Virus record (IMG/VR): IMGVR_UViG_3300025701_000007
Location: 1-64,000 of that record
Strand: one strand, 5' to 3'
DNA from: a virus
DNA length: 64,000 bases
The position numbers and the translations under genes were made by a program. The notes below the pieces were generated by a model, which had not been told where the DNA came from, searched no databases, and saw only the letters and a list, made by a program, of their open reading frames with translations. This document shows positions 14,504 through 60,287 of the stretch, piece after piece; position 1 is the stretch's first letter, and every line of letters starts with the position of its first letter.

Positions 14504-14518
14504 TATTTATAATAAAAT
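14504..14518 (+). promoter_or_regulatory. Candidate phage late promoter (TATTTATA type)
   Basis: TATTTATAATAAAAT lies 22 bases before the ATG at 14526. The same 15 bases occur at 24381-24395, and close variants lie before other gene clusters. It resembles an inverted T4 late box (TATAAATA). No host-type TAnnTTTG element is visible here. Confidence 0.5.
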
Positions 14519-14525
14519 AGCTAAT

Positions 14526-14747
14526 ATGAACAACATTAACAACGGTTTAGATAAATTTTTAGGTAAACAGAATAACGCACAACTAGGTGAGGAAGTTTGT
14601 GACCTAAATGGGGTTTGTTACATTAAAACAAAAGATGGTTTAATAGAAAAGACCTTGATAGAAAAAAAATTAGTATTAGAGGATGGTAGGGAACTACTTA
14701 GAGAAGAAACTCCTATAAGTAACTCAAATAAAAGATTTTTAAGATGA
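14526..14747 (+). CDS. Hypothetical small protein
   Basis: 73 residues, charged, with one CDLNGVC pair of cysteines near residues 25-31 and a Lys/Glu-rich centre (LIEKTLIEKKLVLEDGRELL). No domain recognised and no signal peptide or membrane segment. It opens a three-gene unit behind a candidate late promoter and overlaps the next gene by 4 bases (ATGA), so the two are probably co-translated. The late-promoter context suggests a virion or assembly protein, but this is inference. Confidence 0.65.
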   Translation: MNNINNGLDKFLGKQNNAQLGEEVCDLNGVCYIKTKDGLIEKTLIEKKLVLEDGRELLREETPISNSNKRFLR

Positions 14748-15451
14748 ACATAAATAAGAAAAATATATTATCAGAAGAAATTTCTAGGTTTAACGATATA
14801 CTATCATATACCTTAGAAGAAGGTAATCACTATAAATTCTATGAAGCTGAAGAAAACGAAGTGGTTGAAGAACCAGAAGAATCAGCTGAAGAGGAATTGG
14901 TTGATGATACTGAATTAGATACAGAACCAGCTGAAGAAGAGTTAGTGGACGATGCTGAAGGTTTAGAAGAACCAGAAGGTGATGTTGAAGCTACCACCAA
15001 TGATGAGGGTGATATAGAGATAGATGTTACTGAATTAGTTAACTCAACCAAAGAGATGAACACTAAGACAGATGACGTTGTTAGTAAGATAACAGATACA
15101 GCATCTAAAATAGAATCTATGATATCCAGAGTTGATGGAGTCGAGAAGAGCTTGAATAAGATGGATTCATTAATCCAACAAATGCAGAGTTTAACTAAAC
15201 AAGTTGAATTAATGAGACCTCATACAGAAGAAGAAAGAAGAAAAGTTTTAGCAAAAGACTCTTACCCTTTTAGCGTCACTCAAGATGAGTACCTAGAAAA
15301 TATGGGGCCAAAAACTCAAACCGATCTAGAAGGTAGACCAGATAAATTATCTATGATGGATAATTTAGTTAACGACTATAATGAGGTTGATATTAAACAC
15401 AGCTTCTATAACGTTGAAGATAAAGAAGAAAGAAAGATAAGTAATTATTGA
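14744..15451 (+). CDS. Acidic coiled-coil protein, probable virion or assembly component
   Basis: 235 residues. Residues about 35-85 are extremely acidic with an internal repeat (AEEELVDD occurs twice). Residues about 95-155 are predicted coiled coil (repeated S/T, I/V, L heptads through KMDSLIQQMQSLTKQVEL). The C-terminal third is conserved-looking but unassigned (SYPFSVTQDEYLENMG). It is translationally coupled to the gene before it (ATGA) and lies 2 bases before the next. An acidic region plus coiled coil is typical of phage internal or scaffold proteins, so a structural or assembly role is a reasonable inference, not a demonstrated one. Confidence 0.65.
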   Translation: MNINKKNILSEEISRFNDILSYTLEEGNHYKFYEAEENEVVEEPEESAEEELVDDTELDTEPAEEELVDDAEGLEEPEGDVEATTNDEGDIEIDVTELVNSTKEMNTKTDDVVSKITDTASKIESMISRVDGVEKSLNKMDSLIQQMQSLTKQVELMRPHTEEERRKVLAKDSYPFSVTQDEYLENMGPKTQTDLEGRPDKLSMMDNLVNDYNEVDIKHSFYNVEDKEERKISNY

Positions 15452-15452
15452 T

Positions 15453-15755
15453 ATGAGAAATAACGGAATACAACAGGAAATAGTAACTGAATACATAACA
15501 ACTGGCGATGCGGCCTTAGTGGAAGTGGATAACTCAGAGTATAATATAAGATACTTCTCTATACTACCTTGTGGCCATATCAACGATACGGTAACGGTTA
15601 CGTTAAACGGTATGAGTGATATCGTACTATCAATGATTGGTAAAACAGAATTACCTATAAAATCTATAGAAGTTACATCCGTACAGGATGGTGGTGCTGG
15701 TGTTAAAAAAGGTTTGATGGTATATGGACTAAAAGTTTATAAGACCATCTTTTAA
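15453..15755 (+). CDS. Hypothetical small β-rich protein, possibly a virion protein
   Basis: 100 residues, mostly alternating hydrophobic β-strand pattern (DTVTVTLNGMSDIVLSMI, IKSIEVTSVQDGG, LMVYGLKVYKTIF), with no charged tail and no membrane segment. It looks like a compact β-sandwich such as a decoration or fibre-associated protein. It is the last gene before the terminator at 15777. No family recognised. Confidence 0.6.
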   Translation: MRNNGIQQEIVTEYITTGDAALVEVDNSEYNIRYFSILPCGHINDTVTVTLNGMSDIVLSMIGKTELPIKSIEVTSVQDGGAGVKKGLMVYGLKVYKTIF

Positions 15756-15776
15756 ACTAAAGAAATTAAGACTTAG

Positions 15777-15804
15777 AAACCTCTGTATACGCAGGGGTTT
15801 TTTT
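15777..15804 (+). terminator. Rho-independent terminator after the 14526-15755 unit
   Basis: AAACCTCTG and CAGGGGTTT form a 9-bp stem (one G-T pair) around a 6-base loop, followed by a run of T. It lies 22 bases after the stop of the preceding gene and before the ssb promoter. Confidence 0.85.
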
Positions 15805-15832
15805 ATTTTTATTCATTTTTTATTACACTTGC

Positions 15833-15863
15833 TTGTTTATAGATATTTTTTTTACTAGGTTTG
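15833..15863 (+). promoter_or_regulatory. Bacteroidota-type promoter for ssb
   Basis: TTG at 15833-15835 (another at 15829), a 20-base spacer, then TAGGTTTG at 15856-15863. This fits the Bacteroidota primary-sigma consensus TTG-N(19-21)-TAnnTTTG exactly. The ssb ATG is 25 bases further on. Host-type sequence suggests early transcription by unmodified host polymerase. Confidence 0.75.
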
Positions 15864-15888
15864 TACTATAATTTTAAAAAATATAAAT

Positions 15889-16842
15889 ATGATTGATTAC
15901 AAAAAGATTGATTGGAGCAAGGCCGCAACAGACACTCTGGCCGATTACGAACAAGCAAAGGCAAAAGCAGCCACAAACTCACAAAAGCGCACTGGCGTTG
16001 ATTTAACTAAGTATTTCAATATAATGCTTAAAGATGGTGAAAACCAAGGAGAAAAGTCTATTAGGATTCTACCTAACCAAGACGATCCAACTAAATGGTA
16101 TAAAGTTGGTTATTTCCACAACGTAAAAATTGGTAGTAGATATACTAAACTATACGATCCAGCTCAAGACAACGAACCTTCACCGTTAAACGAGGCTTAC
16201 AAATACCTTATGAATACTGGTGATAGTGACGACAGAAAAACAGCTAACAGCTATAGATCTAGACAATACTTTATTGTACGTTGTATTGAAAGAGGTAAAG
16301 AACATGAAGGTGTTAAATTCTGGAGATTCCCAGCAGTACAAGACGGTTCAGGTATCATGGATAAAATCGCACCACTAGTTAAAAAATACGGAGCTTTCTG
16401 GAATCCATTCGAGGGTTATGATCTTACTATCTCTATCATTAGAGACAAGTCTGGACCTAACAAAGCTGGTTACAGTAAAGCGGCTTCTATTATTCCAGAC
16501 AGAGAATCTAAATTGTTTGAAGATGAAAATCAAGCAATTCAAACGCTAGAAGACCCTATGGTATGGACTGATGTGTTCAGAAAAAAACCACAAGACTACT
16601 TATTATTGGTTGCTGAAGGTTTAGAACCTATGTGGGATGCTGAGGCTAAGAAATTCGTTGGCAAAGTTGAAGATGGTATTACTACTTATAGTAATGAAAA
16701 ACCAGCAGAAAGAACTAATTACGAAACTCCGACACAGAGTAATACGGCTAGTGAGACAACAACTACATCTGAAGATACTGCTACAGCTCCACAACAACCA
16801 GAAGCTACGACAGAACTAAAGATTGACGACTTACCTTTTTAA
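15889..16842 (+). CDS. gp32: gp32-like single-stranded DNA-binding protein
   Basis: 317 residues. The layout resembles T4 gp32: a basic N-terminal arm, an OB-fold core with aromatic strands (DPTKWYKVGYFHNVKIGS, SRQYFIVRCIERGKEHEGVKFWRFP, FEGYDLTISIIRDKSG) and a disordered Thr/Glu-rich tail. The Cys/His zinc site of T4 gp32 is not visible. The last residues read KIDDLPF, very like the DDDIPF tip that bacterial SSB uses to recruit partner enzymes. It coats ssDNA during replication and recombination and partners with UvsX and the helicase encoded downstream. It has its own host-type promoter and is bounded by terminators on both sides, so it is probably expressed as a strong single-gene unit. 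Confidence 0.88.
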   Translation: MIDYKKIDWSKAATDTLADYEQAKAKAATNSQKRTGVDLTKYFNIMLKDGENQGEKSIRILPNQDDPTKWYKVGYFHNVKIGSRYTKLYDPAQDNEPSPLNEAYKYLMNTGDSDDRKTANSYRSRQYFIVRCIERGKEHEGVKFWRFPAVQDGSGIMDKIAPLVKKYGAFWNPFEGYDLTISIIRDKSGPNKAGYSKAASIIPDRESKLFEDENQAIQTLEDPMVWTDVFRKKPQDYLLLVAEGLEPMWDAEAKKFVGKVEDGITTYSNEKPAERTNYETPTQSNTASETTTTSEDTATAPQQPEATTELKIDDLPF

Positions 16843-16859
16843 TAGGTTATAATATATAT

Positions 16860-16911
16860 TGTGTGAGTGTTATATAGTTTATTATAACTTATACACTCAC
16901 ACATTTTTTTT
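16860..16911 (+). terminator. Strong terminator hairpin between ssb and uvsX
   Basis: TGTGTGAGTGT (16860-16870) pairs perfectly with ACACTCACACA (16893-16903), giving an 11-bp stem. The AT-rich loop can itself fold (TTATA/TATAA), and a run of nine T follows. It should separate ssb transcription from the uvsX unit. Confidence 0.85.
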
Positions 16912-16934
16912 TAATTAAATAAATAAATAAAAAC

Positions 16935-19435: not shown

Positions 19436-19450
19436 AATAAAAATAAAATA

Positions 19451-20842: not shown

Positions 20843-20886
20843 AAGTATTAGTATATTTACACATATTTATTTACAAAACAAAAATT

Positions 20887-21837: not shown

Positions 21838-21885
21838 ACCAACACCACTAACATTAACAAATAACGAACAATTAATAAAATTTAA

Positions 21886-24297: not shown

Positions 24298-24319
24298 AGT
24301 CTACTACAACAACTAAACT

Positions 24320-24358
24320 AAATCCCATCATTATTGATATAATGATGGGATTTTTATT
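24320..24358 (+). terminator. Perfect 15-bp terminator after nrdA
   Basis: AAATCCCATCATTAT (24320-24334), loop TGAT, then ATAATGATGGGATTT (24339-24353) pair without mismatch, followed by TTATTTA. It closes the replication/nrd unit before the baseplate unit. Confidence 0.92.
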
Positions 24359-24380
24359 TACAAAAAATATTTTATTACGA

Positions 24381-24395
24381 TATTTATAATAAAAT
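24381..24395 (+). promoter_or_regulatory. Candidate phage late promoter (TATTTATA type)
   Basis: TATTTATAATAAAAT, identical over 15 bases to 14504-14518, lies 19 bases before the gp25 ATG and 28 bases after the nrdA terminator stem. It is placed to start the long baseplate/fibre unit. Confidence 0.55.
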
Positions 24396-24399
24396 ATTT

Positions 24400-24816
24400 A
24401 TGGCCTTAAAGAAACAAACATTTGGAATTGACTTCCCTTTCACTTTCTCGGAAAACGGAGACTACCTTAGATTGACATCTGTACCAGAATCTGAAGTTAA
24501 AGCTATGTTGATACATTTGTTGTTAACTAGAAAGGGTACCAGGTATTATCTACCAGACTTTGGTACGAATATATACCAATACATATTTGAACCTTTAGAT
24601 GATATAACTATAGGTAAAATCGAATCAGAGATAAGTGATGCGGTTGAGAAATATATACCTAACTTAAAATTAAATAACGTTATAATCTCTAGAGTTGGTG
24701 ACGACCCAAAACACCTTAACGATACCGAAAAAGAGCATCAGGTTAGGATAAATCTAGATTATACTATAACAACTAAAACATTCCAATCAAACGGATCTTT
24801 AGCAATAACTATATAA
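24400..24816 (+). CDS. gp25: Baseplate wedge protein gp25-like
   Basis: 138 residues, the usual gp25/GpW-family length. The conserved segment LTRKGTRYYLPDFGTNIYQY followed by IFEPLD (residues about 38-63) is the hallmark of this family, with a helical middle and a β C-terminus (VRINLDYTITTK). In T4, gp25 joins gp6 and gp53 at the core of each baseplate wedge and triggers sheath assembly. It is the first gene of the second baseplate cluster and lies 4 bases before the gp6-like gene, the same order as in many contractile tails. Confidence 0.93.
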   Translation: MALKKQTFGIDFPFTFSENGDYLRLTSVPESEVKAMLIHLLLTRKGTRYYLPDFGTNIYQYIFEPLDDITIGKIESEISDAVEKYIPNLKLNNVIISRVGDDPKHLNDTEKEHQVRINLDYTITTKTFQSNGSLAITI

Positions 24817-24820
24817 CAAA

Positions 24821-33579: not shown

Positions 33580-34476
33580 ATGGCAATAGGTGTATATGGT
33601 GTTAAAAGACCAGCAGACGTAGATCCTTCCGATATAGAAGTGATCGTTTTATATAGCAGAAATAGAAATGCTACCGAAACACAAAAAGTAACGAAATTAA
33701 GTGGTACAGATGTTATGAAACCAGTACTAGACCCTACAAATACAGTAGAGGTTTTAGGTGGTATGTATAACATGGAATTACCCAAATCAGTATTTAACGC
33801 AAAAGGGTATTATACTGTTTATATACGACCAGCCCAGATAAGGGTAAATATAGAGGACTGTGGTGACTTAGCTACATTCCCAGACATAAAAGGTTTAGTA
33901 TTTAACACAGAATCAGTCCCAACGGCCTTTAGAAGCAAATTCACTAATAACGGATTGGATGGTTATAGAGTAGAATATTTAAATGAGAACGGTAGTAAGA
34001 TACCTAATTTATATAGAATCATAACCTCATCTTTTATTGTAGAACCAGTACAGGTTAATACAGCTAACAGTTCGGTTAAATCTATAAAGTACACTTACAA
34101 TAATTCAGGTTCGCTCATATTCTCAACAGTAACACCAAATGCAGCACCTAGTTTTAAACCTACGGCAGCACCATTTATAGGATTCAAAGGTCAAAGTGTT
34201 ATATTAACCAATACTAATTTTACACCTCAAGTAATGGAAGTAGAGTTAGTTAACTATGATGTAGAGAGTTTAGCCATAGCATTGTATTCAGACCAAACAA
34301 AATCTGTTGACGACGGTATATACACTCTATACGATTTTGATGGTAATATTTACGCACAACACGATCTATATGAGATTAAAGATTCTGTTGATAATAAATT
34401 GTATGAAGTTAGGACTAGAAGAAGTACTATAGACACTACTAAAACATTAAATAACATAACAGGAAACAATGGCTAA
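33580..34476 (+). CDS. Hypothetical virion β-protein
   Basis: 298 residues. The start (AIGVYGVKRPADVDPSDIEV) and the pattern of alternating strands with Pro/Asn turns (GGMYNMELPKSVFNAKGYYT, VYIRPAQIRVNIEDCGDL) indicate an all-β structural protein. A segment FIGFKGQSVILTNTNFTPQV follows a Pro/Ala linker near residue 195. It overlaps the 2474-residue gene by 8 bases. It may be an attachment or chaperone-like partner of that protein. This is inference. Confidence 0.58.
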   Translation: MAIGVYGVKRPADVDPSDIEVIVLYSRNRNATETQKVTKLSGTDVMKPVLDPTNTVEVLGGMYNMELPKSVFNAKGYYTVYIRPAQIRVNIEDCGDLATFPDIKGLVFNTESVPTAFRSKFTNNGLDGYRVEYLNENGSKIPNLYRIITSSFIVEPVQVNTANSSVKSIKYTYNNSGSLIFSTVTPNAAPSFKPTAAPFIGFKGQSVILTNTNFTPQVMEVELVNYDVESLAIALYSDQTKSVDDGIYTLYDFDGNIYAQHDLYEIKDSVDNKLYEVRTRRSTIDTTKTLNNITGNNG

Positions 34477-37400: not shown

Positions 37401-40400
37401 CATTACCTAACGGACCAGGTGAATATATAGTAGAATTTACTTACAATAATCTGGATACCCTAAAAATATATGATGGTCAGACTTTCGGGGTACCAAACCT
37501 ATTATTAGATACAGTAACCCAGGACTCTGGTATTGAAAAAGGAGGGGTGTTTAAATACTATAAGTATCTAAACTTCACTACAAGTGAACTTGTTATAAGT
37601 AGAGAGAGTAACCTTAACTTAAGTACGGAAATTACTAGACTTAACGTTGAATTAAAACATGGAACACCAGTAAACTTCACGGTAAATGGTGAGTTAGTTT
37701 ATCAGTTAATAACCTACGGTGTAGATGCTAACGAAGTTTTATTTTACGATTCACCAATCACTATTAACAATGATGAAAGAAATTATTATATCGAAGGTAT
37801 AAGTGTGGGTCACTCAACCATAGCGACTGAATCTAATTACATATGCCCAGTACCAGAACCTCACGTTTGTTACTTTGATTATTCAGGTAATACGATAAAC
37901 ATGAGTGCTCTTGGTTACACAACAACAAATTACGCAACTTATTTAGATGAAACGGATAAAGAGTTATCAGTAAGACAACCTATGAACTACGGTTACTCAA
38001 AAGATACATCTACAACAGAACCAGAAGATGCTATAAGCGGTTCTTCTGGTGATTGGGTTATACCATTCAGAAAAGATAACAACTGGTTATCTGGAGAGAT
38101 ATACTACAAGAATGATATAGTTAAATTCAGTGGTACTTATTATGAGGTTGAAGACCCAGTAGTGACAGGAACAACCACTACTCCAACAGGAACAACAACC
38201 ACCACTATAGTACCAGGTATGTATGAGACATTTATGAACAGAAGTAAGACTGATCCATATATGCACATAAAACCAGCTCTAATAGGTAAAAAGAATATAG
38301 ACGCATTAAATGATATAGTTTCATTCAATCTAACAAAAGACCTATATCTTTATCAAGTATTTAGCGGGTCAACTAATAATGAAACGTATAAGGTTGTTGA
38401 TAACATATTAAACGATGAGTTATATATAAGTGATTCCAGTACCATAGAATTCGATGGTTTTTATTCGATAGATGATACTAAAGTAGGTCCTTTCTATTTG
38501 GCTAATGATGAAGAGATAACAACTCAGACATTAGAAGAAGAAATATCTCTAACACCTGATAAAATTAACTTCATTAACATAAAGTCGCTCAACACTAATT
38601 TCGACTCAGATAACGATAAAATTGGTTTAGCCGAAGGGTTCTATTTGGTAAAAAGAAACTCTTACCTTAAGTTTGATTCTTATTTATATTTCGAGTCAGA
38701 CCAAACAACTACACAAAATATAGTCATAAGACTACAAGATCAATTTGATAACCTAATACATGAACAAGTATTCTCGTTCAACGGTTCAGACGAAGCTCAA
38801 GACAGAGTAGTAAACGTTAGTCACGAATCCCTATTCAGTGTGGATACTAAGATATATTTAACGATAGAACCAGAATTGGTAGGTTGTAAACTGTCTAGAT
38901 ACGAAAAGATAGAGATAGATTACAATGAACCAACTACTTATAGCGCGATTAACGACCCTAGGTTTAGAGTAACATTTAACGGAGGTAGAACCCTAATAGA
39001 AGGTCATTATGTTGACGATGTTTTATCTATAGAACCTGTAGGTGACGATAATAATTATGATGTTGATCATTATATGTTTAAAATTGATGACATATCTAAC
39101 AAACATAATTTCAAAACAAAACTTAAAACCACATTTAACTACGATGAGACGAATGATTTCGGGTTAATATTTGGTAAGTTTTTTAATAAATATAAATCAA
39201 CTAGCGATATAGGTGATGTAACTGTTTATGAAAAGAACCTAAACAACGATAAATTTAATTTTGAGGTTAAGGTTAGGAGTAAGAATATAGGTACTTTTTC
39301 TGGACCCAAGTATTCTTCACCAGGTATAGACTTCGAAGATACTGTTATCTCAAACAATAATTACTTAGGTAACACACCGCAAGAAATAGAAAATACAGGT
39401 CTATCTAAAAGTATTATTTTTGGTAAAACACCTAAACCTAAAACAATTAAACTTAAAAAGACGAACTCACAGTTCTTAAGCTCCTACCTTAACGGTAATG
39501 TTTTAAGTGCAACCCCATCGACTATAGATTTTATAGGTAAAGATGAAGGTTTTGCTGATTATGATTTAATAGACTTCTCAGACAACCTAAAATCTAGTTT
39601 CTTATCTAAAGCTAGGTATGAAAATGCGACTGGATACTGGAAAAAAGAAAACCGAATATATGCAACTGAGTTATACCAAGACATATTAAGTGTTGTACCA
39701 GAATTCTCACCAAATATAAATAATTATGAGATAAATGATATAGTTAAAGTAATCCTACCTAACACAGACGTAGTTGTTGAGCTTGAGGATACTACTATAG
39801 AAAATAGAAACGTAGAAAGGTTATATGTCTGTATAGAAGATATAACGTTTTCTCACTTAACAAAAGAGTATAGTGTTTCAAGTACAACTCCACTAACAAT
39901 ACACCCATTCTACAGACCAAATGGACCAAGAGCTTCGTTTATACCTATAGAGAAATATGATACTAAACATTTTACACCTATCGGTTACGATAAATACGAA
40001 AGAAAAGGTATAATCAAAACTAACCAAAAATCCTATACATATGAAAACCCTAAGCTACTAACTGGCTCAATTACGGATACTTTAGATTTAGGTGATGTGG
40101 TTAAAGTTGTTGGTACTGGTAGTACGTATAACCTGTATAAGTATGTATATAATAAACCTTTGATTTACGAATCAGGTAAATCATATAAAGTAGGTAGTTA
40201 CGTGTACCATCAAACTTCTGGTACAACTAACGGCGCTAAGTTCTGGTTAAAAGTGTCCGAACCTGATCACGAACCAGGTGCTACATCAACAACACCATCC
40301 TGGGTTGAATTAAGTAATGATTATATAGACCACAAAGTTACTTTTACTAACCAAGTATTCAATCAATACAATTATGATAGGATAGAAACCAGCTCATTTA

Positions 40401-41893
40401 CTGGTACTTCCTCTATTCCAGATTCTAATTGGAGTACATTAAACATATCAGGCGGATCTAGTCTAAGAATACCTAATTTAATACCAACGAGCCAGACTTT
40501 TTTACTAGGTTACCCAATGACTAACCCTAGAGGTAAAAATACCTTATTTTCGGATATGGTACCTAATAACATTAATGATGATGACTCGATTCTAGATGTG
40601 GTGGACAATGTCGGGGACTTAATGTTTGCGACCATGTCAGTTTCTAGTATATATTCTGGTACTACGAAATCGGTATACAGTGGGTACACAAAAAACACTA
40701 ATTTAATACAAAACGATTATACGGACCTAACATCAAATACCTTAACATACGTAACTTTAAGTGAGGAGAGGTCTGACCGTAATATATCACCATTATTCGA
40801 GTTCTTATGTAACGAAATAGAAGATAATAGTATATACGAGCATGACGCAACAGGTACAACTTATAACCCTACCTCGCAATATAATAGAGATAAATACGCT
40901 GTGGATAGAGGGTTGTTGTACAAAACAAAAAGTACTGGTGTACTAGCCAATAACCCTCATAGTGATACAACCAACTGGGAAGAGAGAGATTTTATGGTTG
41001 TTAAAAAATACACACTATATAAAGATAGGACTAGTATTAAGATTTACGATGGTAACATCTCATCTCTAGATGAGGTGACTAAAAATAACTTATACTTTTT
41101 TGACTCTAATTTAATATTAAAAGACGATTTTAAATCAGATTCTTTTAACGGGTCCACGCATGATACTAAATTAATTAATGGTTTAAATAAATTAGATGAA
41201 GCTAAAGACACAAACATAAGAGACTCTTTTGCTTATGGTTTAACTGGTTTCAGAAAATCGGGTGGTGATTTAATAATGGATTATTATTACGAAAGAGATG
41301 ATAATGATTTACCTAAAACTGGTGAATTCTTAGGTGGTCTTACGATAAAAAACCCTTGTGGGCATAATGCAAAAGTTATATTCGGTACGTTATTCCAGTT
41401 TGATGAAAATCAGGTTGATGATATATTTAATAGATTACAAAGCGCTTTACCGACACCAAAAATATTATCGGCAGATGAAGGTAAGTCAGTAAGGTTACTA
41501 ATAAACCAGAACGGTGCCTCAAACGTGACGCTTAACATAACCGATAATAACGGTACAACAACGACTAAAAACCTACAAAGTAATAGTAGTGTTGATGATG
41601 TTGTGGTAGTTGAAGTTAATGGTGAACTTAATATATCCGTTCAATACGACACATTCAAAAACTCAACCAGATACAAAGAAGGTTTCTTAGATGAGTATGT
41701 ATTATTTAACGACATAGACGAGGGTATAGAAAATACTTTCGTTAAAGCCAATAAAACCTCAATAGGTAATATAGAAACCAGAGTTATAACGGTAAGAGAT
41801 ATACAAGAGGATAGAGTAGTTAGACTAGACTTTGAAGGTGCTAACTTTATAGAGTTAGGAACTGTAGACCCTAAAGACTACATAGTATTATAA
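34469..41893 (+). CDS. Giant baseplate/fibre protein (2474 aa) with gpI-like and CBM5/12-like modules
   Basis: The largest gene in the window. Residues about 512-565 (IELWRRIFINSYHLWKSKGT, then IEFILNLVGL) match the core of P2 gpI-like tail proteins, which link the baseplate to fibres. Downstream are at least three short Trp/Tyr modules resembling CBM5/12 carbohydrate-binding folds: about residues 1195-1230 (NWLSGEIYYKNDIVKFSGTY), 1896-1952 (YESGKSYKVGSYVYHQ...PSWVEL) and 2130-2177 (YAVDRGLLYKTK...NWEER). A Thr-rich linker (encoded at 38165-38208) follows the first. The layout suggests an N-terminal baseplate anchor and a long outer part that touches surface glycans. No enzymatic motif was found. 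It ends the first segment of the unit; a candidate late promoter follows. Confidence 0.75.
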   Translation: MANLGYTNTPLIAHLYDTSEAALIAASELGCNGYRTYNINGQNKYVPCSSFMAYERAIKLYKIQGVENPVSGDGTLGDKAVGLQFASTKDEIGGNPYFTLGNFSISSSVTKKDASDGRVVDLVGDENGKTAASINENNPSKNDQSTAIEQVNKKIEDNVTVKVLFDRKKLENYVSYSPLKDTIKNTIIEITQSYPAALRLNVIGLQSPTISEYSYSDKTDTAQLKLNLANISNPFELEYTSTGTTINDPVNVNPIRNFSKNYRDYTIYYKGIEYPIINATLPDSYTDNDTGIYLTIEGDPFSTEVNTDLTVNRTFWVKPKYQKYDEFQSGLSDMGKFLLDYNYDKKEYISTIRYSKVDDNGVELNVNETLIFPKIDDVNLDLFSNKFDLYLTKLNNISDDFDSTKTNLISRFLTTDSLKEFDTEDRRLDILLNLMGKNLDNVRKYIDGITYMTRLSYDKIENIPDLLTKNYGNMLGFETYNVEDESTIMESIFNLEDLNVEPGLTPAEIDIELWRRIFINSYHLWKSKGTRKSIEFILNLVGLPDSIFEVNEHVYVAREKLNFNNKAREIYGYQYSDENLLKLLPMDIDGYPTVPSQVQYQESGFNLNLDNRNRGPYDFGNAYIKGYEYEGKTPLFKLDRTTDNVKSWVYSENKVLRLSEDSVGYTEYYEDDSRLVINSKELEVYLSSDKIFDFTLYRFLNRNNINVNEDLIFPQDKTVNARELSFNQFMQKCLDDFINVSNRKTIKSYPTLTKIYYDYIKLTGTPVTNTKSLDFLNKFDGSWVKLVQQFTPATTILNAGKKIENSKLFDNKYVYKHGLNNDLDWLGNDGSEFQNKAKRPVNTGLTNPFDTSGLTKNAIVGDTPTFNVKGVKGKNYIGYDPSINEYFGFYLGIQDACNTQVEVYEWDGTKNYGDDSIYGGNINVSGDTKGIFVKHDGSLFRLNTNRMFTGILPTINTKVVHTENYIHLDNTNPIEVITLPNGPGEYIVEFTYNNLDTLKIYDGQTFGVPNLLLDTVTQDSGIEKGGVFKYYKYLNFTTSELVISRESNLNLSTEITRLNVELKHGTPVNFTVNGELVYQLITYGVDANEVLFYDSPITINNDERNYYIEGISVGHSTIATESNYICPVPEPHVCYFDYSGNTINMSALGYTTTNYATYLDETDKELSVRQPMNYGYSKDTSTTEPEDAISGSSGDWVIPFRKDNNWLSGEIYYKNDIVKFSGTYYEVEDPVVTGTTTTPTGTTTTTIVPGMYETFMNRSKTDPYMHIKPALIGKKNIDALNDIVSFNLTKDLYLYQVFSGSTNNETYKVVDNILNDELYISDSSTIEFDGFYSIDDTKVGPFYLANDEEITTQTLEEEISLTPDKINFINIKSLNTNFDSDNDKIGLAEGFYLVKRNSYLKFDSYLYFESDQTTTQNIVIRLQDQFDNLIHEQVFSFNGSDEAQDRVVNVSHESLFSVDTKIYLTIEPELVGCKLSRYEKIEIDYNEPTTYSAINDPRFRVTFNGGRTLIEGHYVDDVLSIEPVGDDNNYDVDHYMFKIDDISNKHNFKTKLKTTFNYDETNDFGLIFGKFFNKYKSTSDIGDVTVYEKNLNNDKFNFEVKVRSKNIGTFSGPKYSSPGIDFEDTVISNNNYLGNTPQEIENTGLSKSIIFGKTPKPKTIKLKKTNSQFLSSYLNGNVLSATPSTIDFIGKDEGFADYDLIDFSDNLKSSFLSKARYENATGYWKKENRIYATELYQDILSVVPEFSPNINNYEINDIVKVILPNTDVVVELEDTTIENRNVERLYVCIEDITFSHLTKEYSVSSTTPLTIHPFYRPNGPRASFIPIEKYDTKHFTPIGYDKYERKGIIKTNQKSYTYENPKLLTGSITDTLDLGDVVKVVGTGSTYNLYKYVYNKPLIYESGKSYKVGSYVYHQTSGTTNGAKFWLKVSEPDHEPGATSTTPSWVELSNDYIDHKVTFTNQVFNQYNYDRIETSSFTGTSSIPDSNWSTLNISGGSSLRIPNLIPTSQTFLLGYPMTNPRGKNTLFSDMVPNNINDDDSILDVVDNVGDLMFATMSVSSIYSGTTKSVYSGYTKNTNLIQNDYTDLTSNTLTYVTLSEERSDRNISPLFEFLCNEIEDNSIYEHDATGTTYNPTSQYNRDKYAVDRGLLYKTKSTGVLANNPHSDTTNWEERDFMVVKKYTLYKDRTSIKIYDGNISSLDEVTKNNLYFFDSNLILKDDFKSDSFNGSTHDTKLINGLNKLDEAKDTNIRDSFAYGLTGFRKSGGDLIMDYYYERDDNDLPKTGEFLGGLTIKNPCGHNAKVIFGTLFQFDENQVDDIFNRLQSALPTPKILSADEGKSVRLLINQNGASNVTLNITDNNGTTTTKNLQSNSSVDDVVVVEVNGELNISVQYDTFKNSTRYKEGFLDEYVLFNDIDEGIENTFVKANKTSIGNIETRVITVRDIQEDRVVRLDFEGANFIELGTVDPKDYIVL
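38165..38208 (+). repeat. Thr-codon repeat (linker) in giant fibre gene
   Basis: An ACAGGAACAAC-type unit is repeated, encoding TGTTTTPTGTTTTT. A low-complexity linker right after the first carbohydrate-binding-like module. Confidence 0.7.
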
Positions 41894-41902: not shown

Positions 41903-41916
41903 TATTTATATAAAAT
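41903..41916 (+). promoter_or_regulatory. Candidate phage late promoter (TATTTATA type)
   Basis: TATTTATATAAAAT lies 22 bases before the ATG at 41925, differing from the 14504 and 24381 copies by one missing A. It would boost the downstream set of fibre genes inside the long late unit. Confidence 0.45.
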
Positions 41917-41924: not shown

Positions 41925-44645
41925 ATGAGCTATATAATTAAAAAGAATGATCCCTTAGTGAACGTTAAATTAACAAACCAGGGTAGAAGAAATTTGGCTG
42001 CTGGTAATCTAACATTTACTAACTTCATTTTAGGTGATAGCGAGATGGACTACTCTAGCGACAACAAGCAAGACGTTAATATACTTAGACCTTCAGACAA
42101 TCAACTAGGTTTAAACTACCCTATAGGTGTTAATAGTGACACCGACTACGTTAAACCCATAACTGTAATAAACTCAATACCAAATGAAGTTTATTCGACA
42201 GCAAAAGAAAGAGGGTTTTTTAATTACTCTGGTACTACAGAACCTTCAGACGTACTATGTAGCTTACATAACATAACCGCATCAACTAGTGGGGATGATA
42301 AAAAAGTGACTTTTAGTTTTACAACTGGGTCGACTAAAAATGAAGAGTATATAGACTTAAAACCAGGAGATTTTGTTTTCATTAAATATGAAAACGAGTC
42401 ATACGTAAGTGGTAGTACTTATAGTCAATCCAAAGAGATTACAACAGCGGCCACACAGTATTTATGGTATACGATAGATGATATATTAACAGCTGACTCT
42501 GGCGTTAACCAAAGCATAACTGGTATAACCTCAGGATCCAATATAACCCTAAACTTAGATAGAAAATTACCTAAAGGGTCCGCTAACCTAACTGCGTTTA
42601 TATATCCTGGTAAAAACACTATAAAGGATTATTATGACGAAGATACACCAGTAGCTTACTGGCAGGGTGGGTTATTAGATTTTTCTAATAACAATACGCA
42701 ATCAGATTTAGATGTCCCTGTATGGAATATGAATATAGTTCACGTTGAAGATGTAATAGGTTTAGATTCTATAGATGATAAATCAAAATACGATACAGTA
42801 TCTAACAATTACTTAGGTGCTGCTATAAACTTCAACCATTACGAATCATCGTCTAAAATAGGTTTAATACATTATACAAACAATACAGTATCAAACTTTT
42901 ACGGGGAAGGTTTCAAACAATCGACGATGAAGCTAAAGATACCTTACATAATGTGGCACAAGAAACAATATAGTGGCACTACATTTAATGAGATAGGTTA
43001 CACTTTTGTTACTGATACTGAATTAAAAACGATGACATCTGGGGATCAAACTAATAGTACATTCAGTTATTATGACTTAATAGATCAGGAGAGTGATAAA
43101 AATGTAGTTGGTAAGGTATTGATAGATGAAAAAGTTATTATAATAGAAGACCCTGAATTACTTTCAGTTTTATCTTATAAAGCTAATAGGAATTGGACTC
43201 TACCTAAGCCTTTGTTGACTCTAACTGAGCCAGGTATATGTGGTAACACTAGTACATTAGGTGTTCTACAACCAGGTGAATACTTCTATGCGAGTTACAT
43301 GATGACAGACACTAACGGTATAACTGGTATGCACTGTGAGGATTATACTACTATAGTTAATAACACAGACACCCCAAAAGACGTTAGTTTTGAGTTTAAT
43401 AAGAAGAAATCAGACCCTAACTATAACGAGTTTTCGTACTTAACGGATTATGACGATACAACTGGGTTAGGTTTCAAAGTAAATCAGATAACACTACTTT
43501 GGCAAAAATCAGAGACTGCTATAAAACCAGATTCTGGTAACTGGGCTTACACCGATATAAGTAATTACTTAGGTACAAATGGTTGTGTTACAGGTGTAAT
43601 GAATGTAGATGGTACTAATTTTGAATTACACGCCGATATATTAGATTACACCACTAGTTTATTAACCACTCATAGTGTTATAGATACTAGTTTATTTGAT
43701 GTATTCGAATTAGGTGAAGAGCCTATAGGTGAGATTATAGTTATATATCAGGGTGGAATACAAAAAGAAGCATCTGACGATACGTTATCAGACGGTGATT
43801 ATTATAGATATAGTAAAGGTTATGCTACGGGACCAAATAATAAAGAGGTTATCGTATTTAATAAAGGTTATGGGTCAACTAACGATTTATTACAATTTTA
43901 TTACTTGATAGGTAAAAGTAATACCGCTAAGACCATAAAAACTGTTATATCGGTACCTGATTTAGCTACTATAAATTCTAATACTAATTTAGACCCTATA
44001 TACAGATCAACAATAAGCCCTAATAGAATATCGCTTAAGTTAGATAAACAACCCAACAACTCAACGGTATGGTTATTCTACAAAGGTATGTTATTATCAT
44101 CTAATACTTACGGAGTGTTTGTAACTAACGAAGGTATAGATGACAGAAGGGTTGAATTAAATTTCACACCAACAGACGGTAGTGAGATAACAATGTTTTA
44201 TTTAGACAACTCTGGGCTAGGTCAAACTGTTACGACTAATTTATTAACAAAAGAAACCATATCCGCATTAAGAGTTAATATAGATAAAAATATACTTGAC
44301 AATAGTGAGTTAGATATCTATACTTTATCTGACCACATAGAAATACCAACGGTAAACGAACCCACCAAACATACATTTGGTGACGAAGTATTCTTTTATG
44401 GTAATATTGAAACCGATATTAAAGCTACGATATACAAAACACAGTTAACCTGTAATGTATTACCGAACCAGTTTACAGTTACTAAGAATCCAACGTTCAA
44501 TTCTGACCAGGACAAAGTAGCTTTCACTGAGATAGCTATAACGGGTGAAGATAATTCGGTGGTAGCTATTGGTAAATTTTCAGAACCAATAACTAGAAAA
44601 TATAATTCTGATATGTTAGTACTACAAGTAACAATAGATTTCTAA
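41925..44645 (+). CDS. Virion protein with N-terminal LTxxGRR module and paralogous C-terminus
   Basis: 906 residues. The N-terminus (VKLTNQGRRNLAAGNLTFTN, then ILGDSEMDY) shares its LTxxGR...DxxxxY pattern with the genes at 44645 and 46786. The last 45 residues (FTEIAITGEDNSVVAIGKFS, PITRKY, then alternating strands) resemble the end of the 619-residue protein at 47039 (ITQLGIHDSDGNLLAICKPT, PIKKYW). The middle is β-rich with repeated 'tgt/sgs' turns, typical of baseplate or fibre proteins. It follows a candidate late promoter. No enzyme motif. Probably a paralogue of the 46786+47039 pair and a baseplate or short-fibre component. Confidence 0.7.
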   Translation: MSYIIKKNDPLVNVKLTNQGRRNLAAGNLTFTNFILGDSEMDYSSDNKQDVNILRPSDNQLGLNYPIGVNSDTDYVKPITVINSIPNEVYSTAKERGFFNYSGTTEPSDVLCSLHNITASTSGDDKKVTFSFTTGSTKNEEYIDLKPGDFVFIKYENESYVSGSTYSQSKEITTAATQYLWYTIDDILTADSGVNQSITGITSGSNITLNLDRKLPKGSANLTAFIYPGKNTIKDYYDEDTPVAYWQGGLLDFSNNNTQSDLDVPVWNMNIVHVEDVIGLDSIDDKSKYDTVSNNYLGAAINFNHYESSSKIGLIHYTNNTVSNFYGEGFKQSTMKLKIPYIMWHKKQYSGTTFNEIGYTFVTDTELKTMTSGDQTNSTFSYYDLIDQESDKNVVGKVLIDEKVIIIEDPELLSVLSYKANRNWTLPKPLLTLTEPGICGNTSTLGVLQPGEYFYASYMMTDTNGITGMHCEDYTTIVNNTDTPKDVSFEFNKKKSDPNYNEFSYLTDYDDTTGLGFKVNQITLLWQKSETAIKPDSGNWAYTDISNYLGTNGCVTGVMNVDGTNFELHADILDYTTSLLTTHSVIDTSLFDVFELGEEPIGEIIVIYQGGIQKEASDDTLSDGDYYRYSKGYATGPNNKEVIVFNKGYGSTNDLLQFYYLIGKSNTAKTIKTVISVPDLATINSNTNLDPIYRSTISPNRISLKLDKQPNNSTVWLFYKGMLLSSNTYGVFVTNEGIDDRRVELNFTPTDGSEITMFYLDNSGLGQTVTTNLLTKETISALRVNIDKNILDNSELDIYTLSDHIEIPTVNEPTKHTFGDEVFFYGNIETDIKATIYKTQLTCNVLPNQFTVTKNPTFNSDQDKVAFTEIAITGEDNSVVAIGKFSEPITRKYNSDMLVLQVTIDF

Positions 44646-46717: not shown

Positions 46718-46732
46718 TATTTATATAATAAA
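46718..46732 (+). promoter_or_regulatory. Candidate phage late promoter (TATTTATA type)
   Basis: TATTTATATAATAAA in the 87-base gap, 68 bases before the ATG at 46786, further away than the other copies. The gap is otherwise plain AT-rich DNA. Confidence 0.4.
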
Positions 46733-46785: not shown

Positions 46786-47031
46786 ATGGGGTTTGTACCA
46801 CAAAACGGAGATAGCGAGGAAATCAAAGTTTACTTAACAGAATTAGGTAGAAGAAAACTTTTAGAACAAGGTTTTATACCTGCATCATTTTCAATTTCAG
46901 ATGAAGATGGTAATTATAATGCACTAACAACTGTAGATCAGATTGTAACTGACGTTACTGGTGATTATAACGACAACGTTTACGCAATATCAAAGAACGT
47001 CACAATAAAAAATCAAATCCTTATAAAATAA
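46786..47031 (+). CDS. Small virion protein with LTxxGRR module (split N-terminal half)
   Basis: 81 residues. EIKVYLTELGRRKLLEQGF and SFSISDEDGNYNAL match the N-terminal module of the 906-residue protein at 41925. It lies 7 bases before the 619-residue gene whose C-terminus matches the other end of that protein, so the two genes together look like a split version of it. It ends in a short strand (NVTIKNQILIK). No other motif. Confidence 0.62.
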   Translation: MGFVPQNGDSEEIKVYLTELGRRKLLEQGFIPASFSISDEDGNYNALTTVDQIVTDVTGDYNDNVYAISKNVTIKNQILIK

Positions 47032-49577: not shown

Positions 49578-49608
49578 TTGTTTTTACTAAAATCATTTAC
49601 TATATTTG
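49578..49608 (+). promoter_or_regulatory. Bacteroidota-type promoter before the primase
   Basis: TTG at 49578-49580, spacer of exactly 20 bases, then TATATTTG at 49601-49608, matching TTG-N20-TAnnTTTG as at ssb. The primase ATG is at 49615, only 6 bases after the -7 element, so the mRNA would be leaderless or nearly so. A second TATATTTG at 49573-49580 has no well-spaced TTG. Confidence 0.75.
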
Positions 49609-51291: not shown

Positions 51292-51300
51292 AAATATAAT

Positions 51301-54875: not shown

Positions 54876-54878
54876 TAT

Positions 54879-55511
54879 ATGGATAAGATGATAAATTTAA
54901 TCGTATTTAAAATAAGGTATTATCTGTACAATTTATTCGTCAGAATTTTCACCAAAAAATCCAGGAAATATATAATGTTTTTTGTGGGGACCTATCCAGA
55001 TAATTTTAAACATGGTTTAAAACCTATACTAGACAACGATCATCAGATAAAATGGGTTTTTGGCCCAGCATCTATAATACTGATATTCAACTCAAAGGAG
55101 AAGATAAAATATTTGGATAAGTTCTTTAAACGCATGTATTCCGAATATGCAGAATCCTTTTTTCTTTTTGACGTCACAAAAGGCAGATACTCCAAACATG
55201 TCGTCGAGGAATATTATAAACACCTATACTCAGAAGGACCTAAGCAACATAATGACTTAACACTAAATAAGGTACAGTACTTCATAGATATGGTGTCTAA
55301 AGCTAGGGAACAATATATAGACATTTTAAATGAAGAAATAAAATTCGCTAAAGATGTTGAGAACGAGGAAGATGTTGGTGAGGGTAAAAATTTTGATGTA
55401 GATATGAACTTAATAGATGAGATTCTAGATAAGATAATAGAACACGGGTACGACACCCTAACCAATGAAGAAAAAATAATATTAAAAAAATATAGATCTA
55501 ATAATGAATAA
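54879..55511 (+). CDS. Hypothetical protein with Bacteroidota-type C-terminal motif
   Basis: 210 residues. The N-terminus is amphipathic and hydrophobic (INLIVFKIRYYLYNLFVRIF), followed by a mixed α/β region. The final 40 residues (IDEILDKIIEHGYDTLTNEE and KIILKKYR) resemble the 'LDxILDKIxxxGxDSLTxxEK' tail found at the end of many Bacteroidota rhomboid-like and other proteins (I believe DUF6576), supporting a Bacteroidota host. It overlaps the sigma-factor gene by 8 bases. Function unknown. Confidence 0.6.
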   Translation: MDKMINLIVFKIRYYLYNLFVRIFTKKSRKYIMFFVGTYPDNFKHGLKPILDNDHQIKWVFGPASIILIFNSKEKIKYLDKFFKRMYSEYAESFFLFDVTKGRYSKHVVEEYYKHLYSEGPKQHNDLTLNKVQYFIDMVSKAREQYIDILNEEIKFAKDVENEEDVGEGKNFDVDMNLIDEILDKIIEHGYDTLTNEEKIILKKYRSNNE

Positions 55512-56310
55512 CAAGATAGACACAACACACTGGATTGACCAAAAAGAGATTAGTCATTACCTACACGAAGTAAGAAAACATCAACCCCTAACTAGACTAG
55601 AGGAACACCTACTATTAAAAGAGATTAGAGCTGGTAAACCAGGATCTAAAGAAAAGTTAATATACTCCAACCTAAGGTTCGTAATAAGTATAGCCAAGAA
55701 ATATCAGAACAACGGTTTGAGTCTAAGCGACTTAATATCAGAAGGTAATTTAGGTTTATTAAAAGCGGCTGAGAGATTTAACTACGACCAGGATGAGGTT
55801 AGGTTCTTATCATACGCTGTATGGTGGGTCAAACAAACTATAATACAATCATTAAACGATAACTCTAGAGTAATAAGATTACCTATAAACGTTATAAATG
55901 ATGTTAGGAAAACGAATAGAGAAATGACTCTAAACTTGACTGAAGAGAAACAAGCTATGGGTAACCATAAATACTCGAACTTACCATCTGTCGATAATTT
56001 AGATAATAAATACGATGAGGATGGGTTAAGTATTTATGATAAAACAGAGGACGTAACCTCATTAAGACCAGACGATATATATGACAATGAACAAGCCAAT
56101 TTAAATCACGCATTAAATAAAGTTTTATTAGAACTTAGTGAGACCGAAAGAATGGTTATAAGTAGGTATTTTGGGTTAGATTGTGATGAGTCGACCCTAC
56201 AAGATATATCGGTTGATTTAAACATAACAAAAGAAAGAGTTAGACAGATAAAAGAGAAGGCTATAAAGAAGATAAGGTTCTATTCGAGTAGTATTTTCGA
56301 ATTATTGTAA
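55504..56310 (+). CDS. Phage sigma factor (RpoD/SigA-like), probable late sigma
   Basis: 268 residues with sigma-70 regions in order. Region 1.2/2: residues about 30-130, with LRFVISIAKKYQNNGLSLSD, LISEGNLGLLKAAERF and the FLSYAVWWVKQTIIQSL stretch that recognises the -10 region, then NSRVIRLPIN (region 3). Region 4: LSETERMVISRYFGL and the helix-turn-helix LQDISVDLNITKERVRQIKE. It is closer to a full primary sigma factor than to the minimal T4 gp55. It probably redirects host RNA polymerase to phage promoters. The candidate TATTTATA late motif elsewhere in the window is a plausible target, and one copy follows this gene directly. No anti-sigma is visible. Confidence 0.88.
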   Translation: MNNKIDTTHWIDQKEISHYLHEVRKHQPLTRLEEHLLLKEIRAGKPGSKEKLIYSNLRFVISIAKKYQNNGLSLSDLISEGNLGLLKAAERFNYDQDEVRFLSYAVWWVKQTIIQSLNDNSRVIRLPINVINDVRKTNREMTLNLTEEKQAMGNHKYSNLPSVDNLDNKYDEDGLSIYDKTEDVTSLRPDDIYDNEQANLNHALNKVLLELSETERMVISRYFGLDCDESTLQDISVDLNITKERVRQIKEKAIKKIRFYSSSIFELL

Positions 56311-56328
56311 TTTTAATTAAAAGTTAAA

Positions 56329-56340
56329 TATTTATAAGAT
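56329..56340 (+). promoter_or_regulatory. Candidate phage late promoter (TATTTATA type)
   Basis: TATTTATAAGAT ends directly before the ATG at 56341, giving only 12 bases from motif start to start codon. If used as elsewhere, transcription would begin near or after the ATG, so this copy is the weakest of the set or the real start is downstream. Confidence 0.35.
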
Positions 56341-56706
56341 ATGGAAAAGATAAAAAAATTTTTTAGTAAATACGGTTTAATGGCTTTCATAGGATTATTA
56401 TTTATAATGATGATAAGAGGTTGTAGTAAAAACGGTAAAATAAATAAATTAGAGAAAGAGAATACTACCTTAGTTCACACTATTAATGATTTAACTGAAA
56501 CTGTTGATAGTGTATCTAATTCTAGATTAACTGATGAACAGATTAAATTGATTGAGTTAAAGGGTAAATCGGAGGTATTGGATTTTGTTAACAACGAAAT
56601 TTCTAAATACGATAGAAATAAAAGTATGATGGAATTACAATTCGAAGTGATAGGTAGGAAAAAGAATATTGATTCTAAAATAAAAAGTATAGAAAAAAAT
56701 AGGTAA
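56341..56706 (+). CDS. Small membrane-anchored coiled-coil protein
   Basis: 121 residues. One N-terminal membrane segment (LMAFIGLLFIMMI, residues about 13-25) follows a basic start (MEKIKKFFSKY), so the rest is probably outside the inner membrane. The rest is a predicted coiled coil with Asn/Lys/Asp heptads (INKLEKENTTLVHTINDLTE). A Cys follows the membrane segment, but the preceding residues do not form a lipobox. A spanin- or anchor-like role is possible; it does not overlap the amidase-like gene at 59126. Function unknown. Confidence 0.6.
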   Translation: MEKIKKFFSKYGLMAFIGLLFIMMIRGCSKNGKINKLEKENTTLVHTINDLTETVDSVSNSRLTDEQIKLIELKGKSEVLDFVNNEISKYDRNKSMMELQFEVIGRKKNIDSKIKSIEKNR

Positions 56707-56707
56707 A

Positions 56708-58219: not shown

Positions 58220-59136
58220 TGGGTGAAAAAGTGAGTAAGAATTTTATAATAGGTACATTCGTTACCCTATATATAATGGTATCGATTATATCAACTATAC
58301 ACGTAGTAGACTTCTTTCAATTATCCAACCCAAAGTGGTTAGCGATAACATTAGCAATAGCCTTTGAGATAGGTGCGGCCGCTTCTTTAGCATCAATAAT
58401 AGCACTAAAGAAAATGAACAAAAGTATAGTATGGGCATTATTCTTCATACTAACTGCTATGCAAGCCATGGGTAATACCTACTACGCATATAAGAATCTA
58501 GAAGATTTTCAGATGTGGTCAGAACTATTTGGTTTGGTTGATTACGAACCTATTTTCCAAAAAAGAGTTATGTCGATAGTTAGTGGTGCTATATTACCAT
58601 TAGTAGCGTTAGGTTTTATTAAATCGTTAGTTGATTATATAAGACCAGAGTCTGAAGCGACTGAATCCGACGTAAAAGAAGAGGTTGCTGAGGAAGTTAC
58701 AAACCAAGAACCTACTAAAGAAGACGATTATTTTGAACCATGGGACAGATATCACAATGAAACAATGGGTCGAGAAGAACCTATAGATGAGTTTTACGAA
58801 CCAATCAACACTGTAGAGTCCAACGAGGAAGATGATTATTGGGATGAAGATCATGCATTAGATATGGTTATGAATGATATGGTATCTGAATTAGACGACC
58901 AAAATCTATCAGATATTATGGACGAAACAATTGACCAAACACATGATTTGGATTGGGTTTATGATTATAATGAAATAGACGAAGAATCTAAAGAAATTGG
59001 GTTTGAATCTGAAGTAGAGGAAGTTGAACCCGAAGTAGAAGAAACTGAACCTGAAGTAGAGGAAGTTGAAACTAAGAAAAAAAATTATAATAAAATTGAT
59101 GATACTATAATGGTCTTTAAAAAAGATGAAAATTAA
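58219..59136 (+). CDS. Four-TM membrane protein with long acidic tail
   Basis: 305 residues from ATG 58219, which overlaps the preceding stop (TGATG). Four hydrophobic segments at residues about 8-30, 40-62, 68-88 and 118-138. The C-terminal 160 residues are a highly acidic, Trp/Asp/Glu-rich tail with a repeated EVEEVEPEVEETEPEVEE segment (about 59019-59070) and a basic end (KKKNYNKIDDTIMVFKKDEN). It does not look like a typical holin because of the long tail, but a holin or envelope-remodelling role cannot be excluded, as the next gene is an amidase-like protein. It overlaps that gene by 11 bases. Function unknown. Confidence 0.65.
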   Translation: MGEKVSKNFIIGTFVTLYIMVSIISTIHVVDFFQLSNPKWLAITLAIAFEIGAAASLASIIALKKMNKSIVWALFFILTAMQAMGNTYYAYKNLEDFQMWSELFGLVDYEPIFQKRVMSIVSGAILPLVALGFIKSLVDYIRPESEATESDVKEEVAEEVTNQEPTKEDDYFEPWDRYHNETMGREEPIDEFYEPINTVESNEEDDYWDEDHALDMVMNDMVSELDDQNLSDIMDETIDQTHDLDWVYDYNEIDEESKEIGFESEVEEVEPEVEETEPEVEEVETKKKNYNKIDDTIMVFKKDEN

Positions 59137-59737
59137 TAACGAACATTATTTTGACGATAAAGATCATGTAACTAAAACTAAAGCGAAGAAAAAACAAATA
59201 GTTTTAACAAATACTGACTGTACTTTCAACGAGTACTTAACTAAGATAAAAACACGTTACAATGGTAAATACACCAGGGTACCGTGTTTTTCTATTTCTA
59301 AAGAAGGTGATGTATACCAACACTACCCAGTAAACTCTTATAACGAACTGATGTCTGAATACGGTATGGAAAAAAACGTTATAGTTGTAGCCATAGAAAA
59401 TCATGGGTGGTTGAAGAAAGATATGTTAACTGGCGAGTTAGTTAATTGGAAGGGTTCACACTACGAGGGTGATTTAGTTGAAAAACCATGGAGAGGTAAA
59501 AAGATATGGTCTACATATAATGATATACAATACACTAAACTTGCAGAATTAATAGACTATTTATGTTTAAAGCACGGTATTGAAAAAGACTTCGTGGGTA
59601 CAAATACTATAATAGATAAACCTAATTACCATAGAGGTATACTTAATAGGAGTAATTATAGTAAGAATTATTACGATTTATCCCCCGCATTCAATTTTAA
59701 AAAACTAAGCGAATTAATAAATGAAAATTATGGATAG
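59126..59737 (+). CDS. Amidase_2/PGRP-like protein, catalytic ligands apparently missing
   Basis: 203 residues. It follows the N-acetylmuramoyl-L-alanine amidase pattern: first strand QIVLTNTD, YTRVPCFSISKEGDVYQHYP, VIVVAIENHGWL, and a last segment HRGILNRSNYSKNYYDLSPA. In active zinc amidases the first strand reads IVIHHT and the last has a His (GIxxHs). Here these positions are T28-N29 and R175. The fold call is fairly strong but zinc binding looks lost. It may bind rather than cut peptidoglycan, or use a different site. It follows the four-TM protein with an 11-base overlap, so a lysis-related pair is possible. Its end overlaps the next gene. Confidence 0.68.
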   Translation: MKINNEHYFDDKDHVTKTKAKKKQIVLTNTDCTFNEYLTKIKTRYNGKYTRVPCFSISKEGDVYQHYPVNSYNELMSEYGMEKNVIVVAIENHGWLKKDMLTGELVNWKGSHYEGDLVEKPWRGKKIWSTYNDIQYTKLAELIDYLCLKHGIEKDFVGTNTIIDKPNYHRGILNRSNYSKNYYDLSPAFNFKKLSELINENYG

Positions 59738-60242
59738 GAGTTTTAATCACGACAAAAATTACGATGATATAAAATCGTTAATAGGTAAAATTAGAAGTGT
59801 CACTTTAAACGAAGAAGAGGAGATTGTAAAAACGACCCCAGAAGAGGTTGGTGACAAGTCTGGTGAGAAAATAAAATTTGATTCGATTAACACAATAGGT
59901 TATTTAAGTAAATCAGATGACGTTAATCTAGATATGAATGCTTTAGAAGAATCTGTAGGTGAATTTATTAAATCTAGTGGTTTACTATTATCATACGTAA
60001 ATATAAGAGTTGAAATGGGTAGAATCATATTAACATCAGATGTTATAAAAAACCCTTCACTTGAAATGGTTAAAGAAATAATCATAGATACCAACGAAGA
60101 AGATGTTACTATAGAATTAATATCAGGACCATTGACTTTAAGCGGGGATTTACTAAACTTATTAAAGTTAGTTACTAGAACTTATGACGACCCTCAAATA
60201 GGTAGATCTAATTTGATAAAGGTTAGTCAATCAATTGATTAA
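59721..60242 (+). CDS. Hypothetical protein
   Basis: 173 residues from ATG 59721 (ATG 59730 is also possible). Acidic, with an α/β pattern (MNALEESVGEFIKSSGLLLS, YVNIRVEMGRIILTSDVIKN) and no motif recognised. It overlaps the amidase-like gene by 17 bases. A candidate late promoter lies 30 bases after its stop, so it ends the segment. Confidence 0.55.
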   Translation: MKIMDRSFNHDKNYDDIKSLIGKIRSVTLNEEEEIVKTTPEEVGDKSGEKIKFDSINTIGYLSKSDDVNLDMNALEESVGEFIKSSGLLLSYVNIRVEMGRIILTSDVIKNPSLEMVKEIIIDTNEEDVTIELISGPLTLSGDLLNLLKLVTRTYDDPQIGRSNLIKVSQSID

Positions 60243-60271
60243 GTTAAAAGTGATATTTAAAAAAAACTAAC

Positions 60272-60287
60272 TATTTATATTAATAAA
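60272..60287 (+). promoter_or_regulatory. Candidate phage late promoter (TATTTATA type)
   Basis: TATTTATATTAATAAA, 24 bases before the ATG at 60296. Same core as the copies at 14504 and 24381, with a similar distance to the start codon. Confidence 0.45.

Follow-up and report, generated by a model that had tools for sequence, protein, structure and literature searches.

How a phage switches on its late genes is the question raised by the window analysed here, a 64,000-nucleotide stretch (positions 1 to 64,000 of IMG/VR virus record IMGVR_UViG_3300025701_000007) in which the octamer TATTTATA recurs ahead of gene clusters. The complete record has 75,693 bases (b), nearly every gene lies on its + strand, and the part beyond 64,000 was also read. 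We consider TATTTATA to be the late-promoter core of T4-related phages with Bacteroidota-type promoters, read by a gp55-type sigma factor, and we put the probability of this reading at roughly 0.75. The host phylum, Bacteroidota, was inferred from the promoter type together with a cultured relative. No description of TATTTATA as a phage promoter was found in the literature searched, which is not proof that it is unpublished.

Position of the box in the phage record

The first-pass annotation of this DNA had noticed exact or near copies of the motif before six clusters. All six are exact and on the + strand; they are given below with the gp25 homolog that follows one of them and with two copies found inside open reading frames (ORFs).

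14504..14511, + strand: candidate late-promoter box TATTTATA, 14 b to the ATG of ORF 14526-14747; box in 8/8 orthologs
24381..24388, + strand: box preceding the gp25 homolog 24400-24816; box in 5/8 orthologs
24400..24816, + strand: gp25-like baseplate wedge protein, late gene under the box (PHROG 261, 4e-19)
41903..41910, + strand: box preceding ORF 41925-44645; box in 7/10 orthologs
46718..46725, + strand: box, 60 b to the ATG of ORF 46786-47031; box in 5/10 orthologs
56329..56336, + strand: box, 4 b to the ATG of ORF 56341-56706; box in 3/5 orthologs
60272..60279, + strand: box preceding ORF 60296-60646; box in 9/10 orthologs
38681..38688, + strand: TATTTATA copy within ORF 34469-41893
56399..56406, + strand: TATTTATA copy within ORF 56341-56706

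Counted from the first base of the box, the six copies lie 22, 19, 22, 68, 12 and 24 b before the ATG (in coordinate order), so that the spacing of 19–24 b initially described as usual holds for four of them and fails at 46718 (68 b) and 56329 (12 b). The copies at 14504 and 24381 do share an identical stretch as had been reported, with a length of 16 rather than 15 bases (TATTTATAATAAAATA). A hairpin with a T-run lies directly upstream of the box at 24381..24388. The 4-b gap between box and ATG at 56329..56336 is conserved in two related contigs, G001 and G002, and the message made from this box is possibly leaderless.

The window contains 15 copies of TATTTATA against 21.4 expected, if anything few, and global over-representation was accordingly rejected; since the total is not above chance, the signal is positional and only position is informative. 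When upstream gaps (≥20 b) were counted over the whole record (n = 20), 8 carried TATTTATA on the gene strand and 1 on the reverse strand, whereas composition-preserving shuffles of the gaps gave a mean of 0.81 and a maximum of 5, with 0 of 5000 shuffles reaching 8. The enrichment over background and shuffled controls anticipated in the first-pass annotation is thus present in the upstream gaps and missing from the total count. Two additional copies were located past the window end (66897 and 69952), most reverse-strand copies are intragenic, and the intragenic copies at 56399 and 38681 are probably chance occurrences in coding sequence.

Enrichment and direction across related contigs

The record was compared with nine related contigs taken whole (ten contigs in all), with genes called by a simple longest-ORF procedure, and octamers in the upstream gaps were scanned without a prior motif. 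TATTTATA was found in 147 gaps against 16 expected, and the top octamers fell into two families, namely TATCTTTG/TATATTTG, which represent the Bacteroidota -7 box (TAnnTTTG), and TATTTATA with its flanks. An identical scan of phage T4, run as a control, ranked the known late box TATAAATA first (16 gaps vs 1.1 expected). The T4 consensus itself is not the box used here: forward TATAAATA was much rarer than TATTTATA in the gaps of the ten contigs and was rejected as a candidate.

Gaps between genes on the same strand held 129 forward and 18 reverse copies, convergent gaps (8.3 kb) held 0 forward and 3 reverse, and divergent gaps held 18 forward and 17 reverse, while the density within coding interiors was 0.06 per kb. 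This orientation pattern is that of an element obliged to point at the gene. The probability that the pattern merely reflects chance or the base composition of AT-rich gaps is negligible; the total count in the window, which lies under expectation, would agree with such an origin, but it is refuted by the shuffles, by the orientation and convergent-gap tests, and by conservation among orthologs.

Distances from box to start codon peaked at 11–17 b and ranged from 1 to >100 b, with a minor group at 3–4 b before the ATG and nearly none at 5–10 b. The TAnnTTTG class showed a sharp peak of its own, with 20 deduplicated sites at exactly 4 b, which suggests that early messages are leaderless; the short-spaced sites of both boxes would represent leaderless messages if both sit alike relative to the transcription start. 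That many copies end 11–17 b from the start codon could also suit a translation-initiation or other leader element that is no promoter at all, in a phylum that lacks Shine-Dalgarno leaders (PMC6847099). However, TATTTATA stands mainly at the first gene of clusters and was found within 45 b upstream of only 15/676 operon-internal starts, and this rarity, along with the wide range of distances, speaks against a translation signal. Replication-gene orthologs also go without the box, and we regard a leader element as extremely improbable.

Genes headed by the box

Orthologs, defined as reciprocal-best-hit clusters over the ten contigs, formed two nearly separate classes. The TATTTATA class included the orthologs of ORF 60296 (9/10), ORF 14526 (8/8) and ORF 41925 (7/10) as well as gp25, tail tube, terminase and head maturation protease. 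The host-type class included primase (9/10), DNA polymerase (6/6; cluster assigned by overlap with a PF00136 match), a PHROG 850 RNA-binding protein (7/7) and ssb (3/8). The proposals that the motif heads late gene clusters and stands apart from the promoters of replication genes were therefore both borne out: one recurrent, gene-oriented, promoter-type box is conserved before orthologs and heads morphogenesis genes. The host-type promoters initially described before ssb and primase were likewise confirmed in the window, the second of them heading a cluster of primase, exonuclease, SbcD, SbcC and sigma factor.

15833..15863, + strand: host-type promoter TTG-N20-TAGGTTTG, preceding the gp32-like ssb 15889-16842
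49578..49608, + strand: host-type promoter TTG-N20-TATATTTG, preceding primase; host-type in 9/10 primase orthologs

Among other phages, immuto, a cultured phage of Flavobacterium, gave a TATTTATA count of 21 for 1.8 expected; there the box precedes terminase, portal, tail sheath, tail spike and a tail fibre gene and was not found before ssb, RecA, primase or the queuosine genes. Phage Mel-JY01 carried 12 forward and 2 reverse copies, the box being less dominant there. Contigs G018 (9 forward, 0 reverse), G019 (15 and 3) and G020 also had the box; these three and G015 and G016 are discussed below alongside immuto and Mel-JY01, which are complete phage records, whereas G015, G018, G019 and G020 are contigs and possibly incomplete.

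Anatomy of the box and its upstream region

Aligned box sites read [A/C]TATTTATA[A/T][A/T]AAA. The two promoter classes differ upstream: TTG at the -23 offset from the box occurred in 55% of TAnnTTTG sites and 3% of TATTTATA sites of the same genomes, and the TATTTATA class does not conform to the Bacteroidota primary-sigma pattern of TTTG at -33 plus TAnnTTTG at -7. It has no host-type TTTG as a -35 element, yet a weak, position-specific ACTTTT element is present about 20 b upstream, with TTTT at -18/-17 in 47 of 126 box sites (11.6 expected) and ACTT at -20/-19 in 17 (1.9 expected).

The box nevertheless shares with Bacteroidota primary-sigma promoters the bases T1, A2, T5 and T7 and the register, its classes of spacing to the ATG are similar, and both occur within the same genomes. 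These likenesses would be expected if host polymerase read the box as a -7 variant of TAnnTTTG (T6 to A, G8 to A), aided by a phage activator. The box ends in ATA in place of TTG. Against a host variant, these genomes show a strong -33 element with TAnnTTTG and none with the box, and the two classes scarcely mix among orthologs, so that we judge it to be quite improbable. Compared in the same reading direction, TATTTATA and the T4 box TATAAATA are identical at 6/8 positions; the earlier description of the motif as resembling an inverted T4 late box is one possible way of putting it.

A candidate reader in the window

A sigma factor gene had been noted at 55504 as the obvious candidate reader of the motif, and the gene itself is real.

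55504..56310, + strand: RpoD-like sigma factor, regions 2 and 4 (Sigma70_r2 1.5e-16, r4 1.7e-12)

Several observations favour this protein. All ten contigs retain it, and in 7/8 genomes a host-type promoter precedes its cluster, as would suit a middle-expressed late regulator. The weak ACTTTT element could be recognised by its region 4. Furthermore, it follows SbcD/SbcC, the place at which T4-like phages of Pseudomonas, Synechococcus and Stenotrophomonas keep gp55 beside gene 47. The distribution of the box, however, did not follow that of the RpoD-like sigma (PHROG 351). Its profile had no match in immuto, Mel-JY01, RM378, T4, G016, G018, G019 or G020, and Sigma70 region 4 had none in immuto or Mel-JY01, although both are complete and box-bearing; conversely, G015 showed no TATTTATA enrichment despite encoding the sigma, in what is a fragment. 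The box also lacks a clear -35. The assignment of the sigma at 55504 as the reader is contradicted by these records; it is probably not the reader, and we consider that role unlikely for it. What stands of the late-transcription system originally proposed, built on an RpoD-like sigma in a Bacteroidota phage, is the probable late promoter.

A gp55-like protein that tracks the box

The box is instead tracked by a 237-amino-acid protein annotated as ‘hypothetical’, which first came up when G010 and G014 each gave a second, weak match to Sigma70_r2 and was found in every long relative as well as in immuto (gp118, YP_010114565.1, NC_055915), Mel-JY01 (WWT39502.1, PP395634) and RM378 (Rm378p020, NC_004735 17032-17826), all three of these homologs also being labelled ‘hypothetical’. 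The box and this protein occur together, with no RpoD-like sigma detected, in immuto, Mel-JY01, G018 and G019. Profile-profile comparison (hhalign) aligned the family with seven T4-type gp55 proteins at an E-value of 1.5e-5 over 110 residues, while no convincing alignment was obtained with the RpoD-like sigma (E 0.24). Individually, 19/26 members matched Sigma70_r2 and 10/26 matched PHROG 234 (‘late sigma transcription factor’), with weak E-values. TATTTATA is probably read by a relative of T4 gp55 that had gone unrecognised.

A structure model built on six closely related sequences scored low (predicted local distance difference test score, pLDDT, of 59). A model from 26 sequences (pLDDT 79) has two helical regions, at residues ∼10–110 and 140–237, with pLDDT mostly near 90 and a poor stretch at 187–194 that interrupts the second. 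An extra C-terminal domain is thus predicted, for which no relation to the RpoD-like sigma was found by profile. Sigma domain 2 has served as the basis for modelling T4 gp55, and proteins in which gp55 was artificially fused to gp33 are functional (PMC2988020); because of this, the C-terminal domain could, as a matter of speculation by analogy, be a natural counterpart of such a fusion and might replace gp33.

Several points weigh against a gp55-type reader. The record to which the window belongs lacks the gene, whose presence in this phage is inferred from relatives. G016 encodes a gp55-like protein (28% identity) and shows no TATTTATA enrichment, over only 25 gaps, and in RM378 the homolog is present, yet the top word is TTATTTAA. 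Fold searches with the model returned mostly sigma factors but weakly (best PDB E 0.12), and the sequence profile had no match among solved structures. Lastly, a gp45 clamp was detected by PF02916 only in T4 among 9 records, although a diverged clamp could be missed by this search; PF09116 gave no match, control genomes included. As a separate observation, no gp45-type clamp was detected in G002, G007, G010, G013, G014, immuto, Mel-JY01 or RM378, and the five contigs among these encode a family-B DNA polymerase all the same.

A probable T4-type switch with a changed box

T4 late transcription depends on the sigma factor gp55, the co-activator gp33 and the sliding clamp gp45, which is needed for late activation. 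The present system resembles it in having a single AT-rich 8-b box before late genes with little or no -35, a putative gp55-family sigma encoded by the relatives, and T4-like gp20, gp23, polB, gp32 and baseplate genes in the group. It differs in the box itself (TATTTATA rather than TATAAATA), in the weak upstream ACTTTT element, in the predicted extra domain of its 237-residue sigma, and in that no gp45-type clamp was detected in the group. Among T4-like phages, KVP40, 44RR and S-PM2 have highly similar consensus late boxes and Aeh1 has an a/gC variant at -13/-12 (PMC2988020), whereas TATTTATA deviates at central positions. Immuto and RM378 are alike in having a gp55-like protein and no detected RpoD-like sigma, and differ in their boxes, TATTTATA in immuto and TTATTTAA in RM378. 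The comparison with T4 seems apt at the level of the working mode; as the T4 box consensus is not matched, we regard the system as T4-type with a changed box and not as a strict member.

The placement, orientation and conservation of the box, its link with late genes and its joint occurrence with the gp55-like gene were established by computation. In the proposed mechanism, early and replication genes would rely on TTTG-N20-TAnnTTTG promoters, for which the host primary sigma is the simplest reader. The phage-encoded gp55-type sigma would then bring host RNA polymerase to the TATTTATA boxes in front of the head, tail, baseplate and packaging clusters, where the box would act as the core element at the -10/-7 position and transcription would start late in infection. 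The host-type TTTG at -33 would go unused, with at most the weak ACTTTT element assisting. More tentatively, T4-related Bacteroidota phages may have evolved a late system of their own, in which TATTTATA is read by a gp55-type sigma of two domains, region 2 and a helical C-terminal one that stands in for gp33/region 4, while the RpoD-like second sigma serves a different class of promoters within that genome; we hold this fuller version to be somewhat less probable than its negation.

The box offers a means of telling early operons apart from late ones across a large, uncultured group of T4-like phages, and its study gives a candidate function to a conserved ‘hypothetical’ family of three cultured phages (immuto, Mel-JY01 and RM378). 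It also illustrates a route by which such a T4-type switch may have been adapted to a polymerase with promoters unlike the E. coli type, a proposal that cultured immuto makes directly testable.

Other features of the record and its relatives

T4-type genes in the record include a gp32-like ssb, a RecA-like protein, a 5'-3' exonuclease, a DnaB-like helicase, ribonucleotide reductase, the gp25 and gp6 baseplate proteins, SbcC/SbcD and the sigma factor. Most of the relatives identified through the sigma are T4-like phage contigs of larger size, and the record is probably a fragment, since the long ones carry gp23, a T4-type portal and a family-B DNA polymerase. The portal of Mel-JY01 (PP395634) is the best cultured match to the group; its deposited host is a cyanobacterium, and the host label may merit checking. 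Between 60 and 76 kb of immuto (NC_055915), a second promoter class, which reads TTG-N-TATATTTAGGTATC or AGTTG-N-TATATTTAGGTATCAATAATT, stands before many small genes with no known function. In the window, positions 11844-14453 encode a large protein whose C-terminal part has M23 peptidase and phage tail lysozyme domains.

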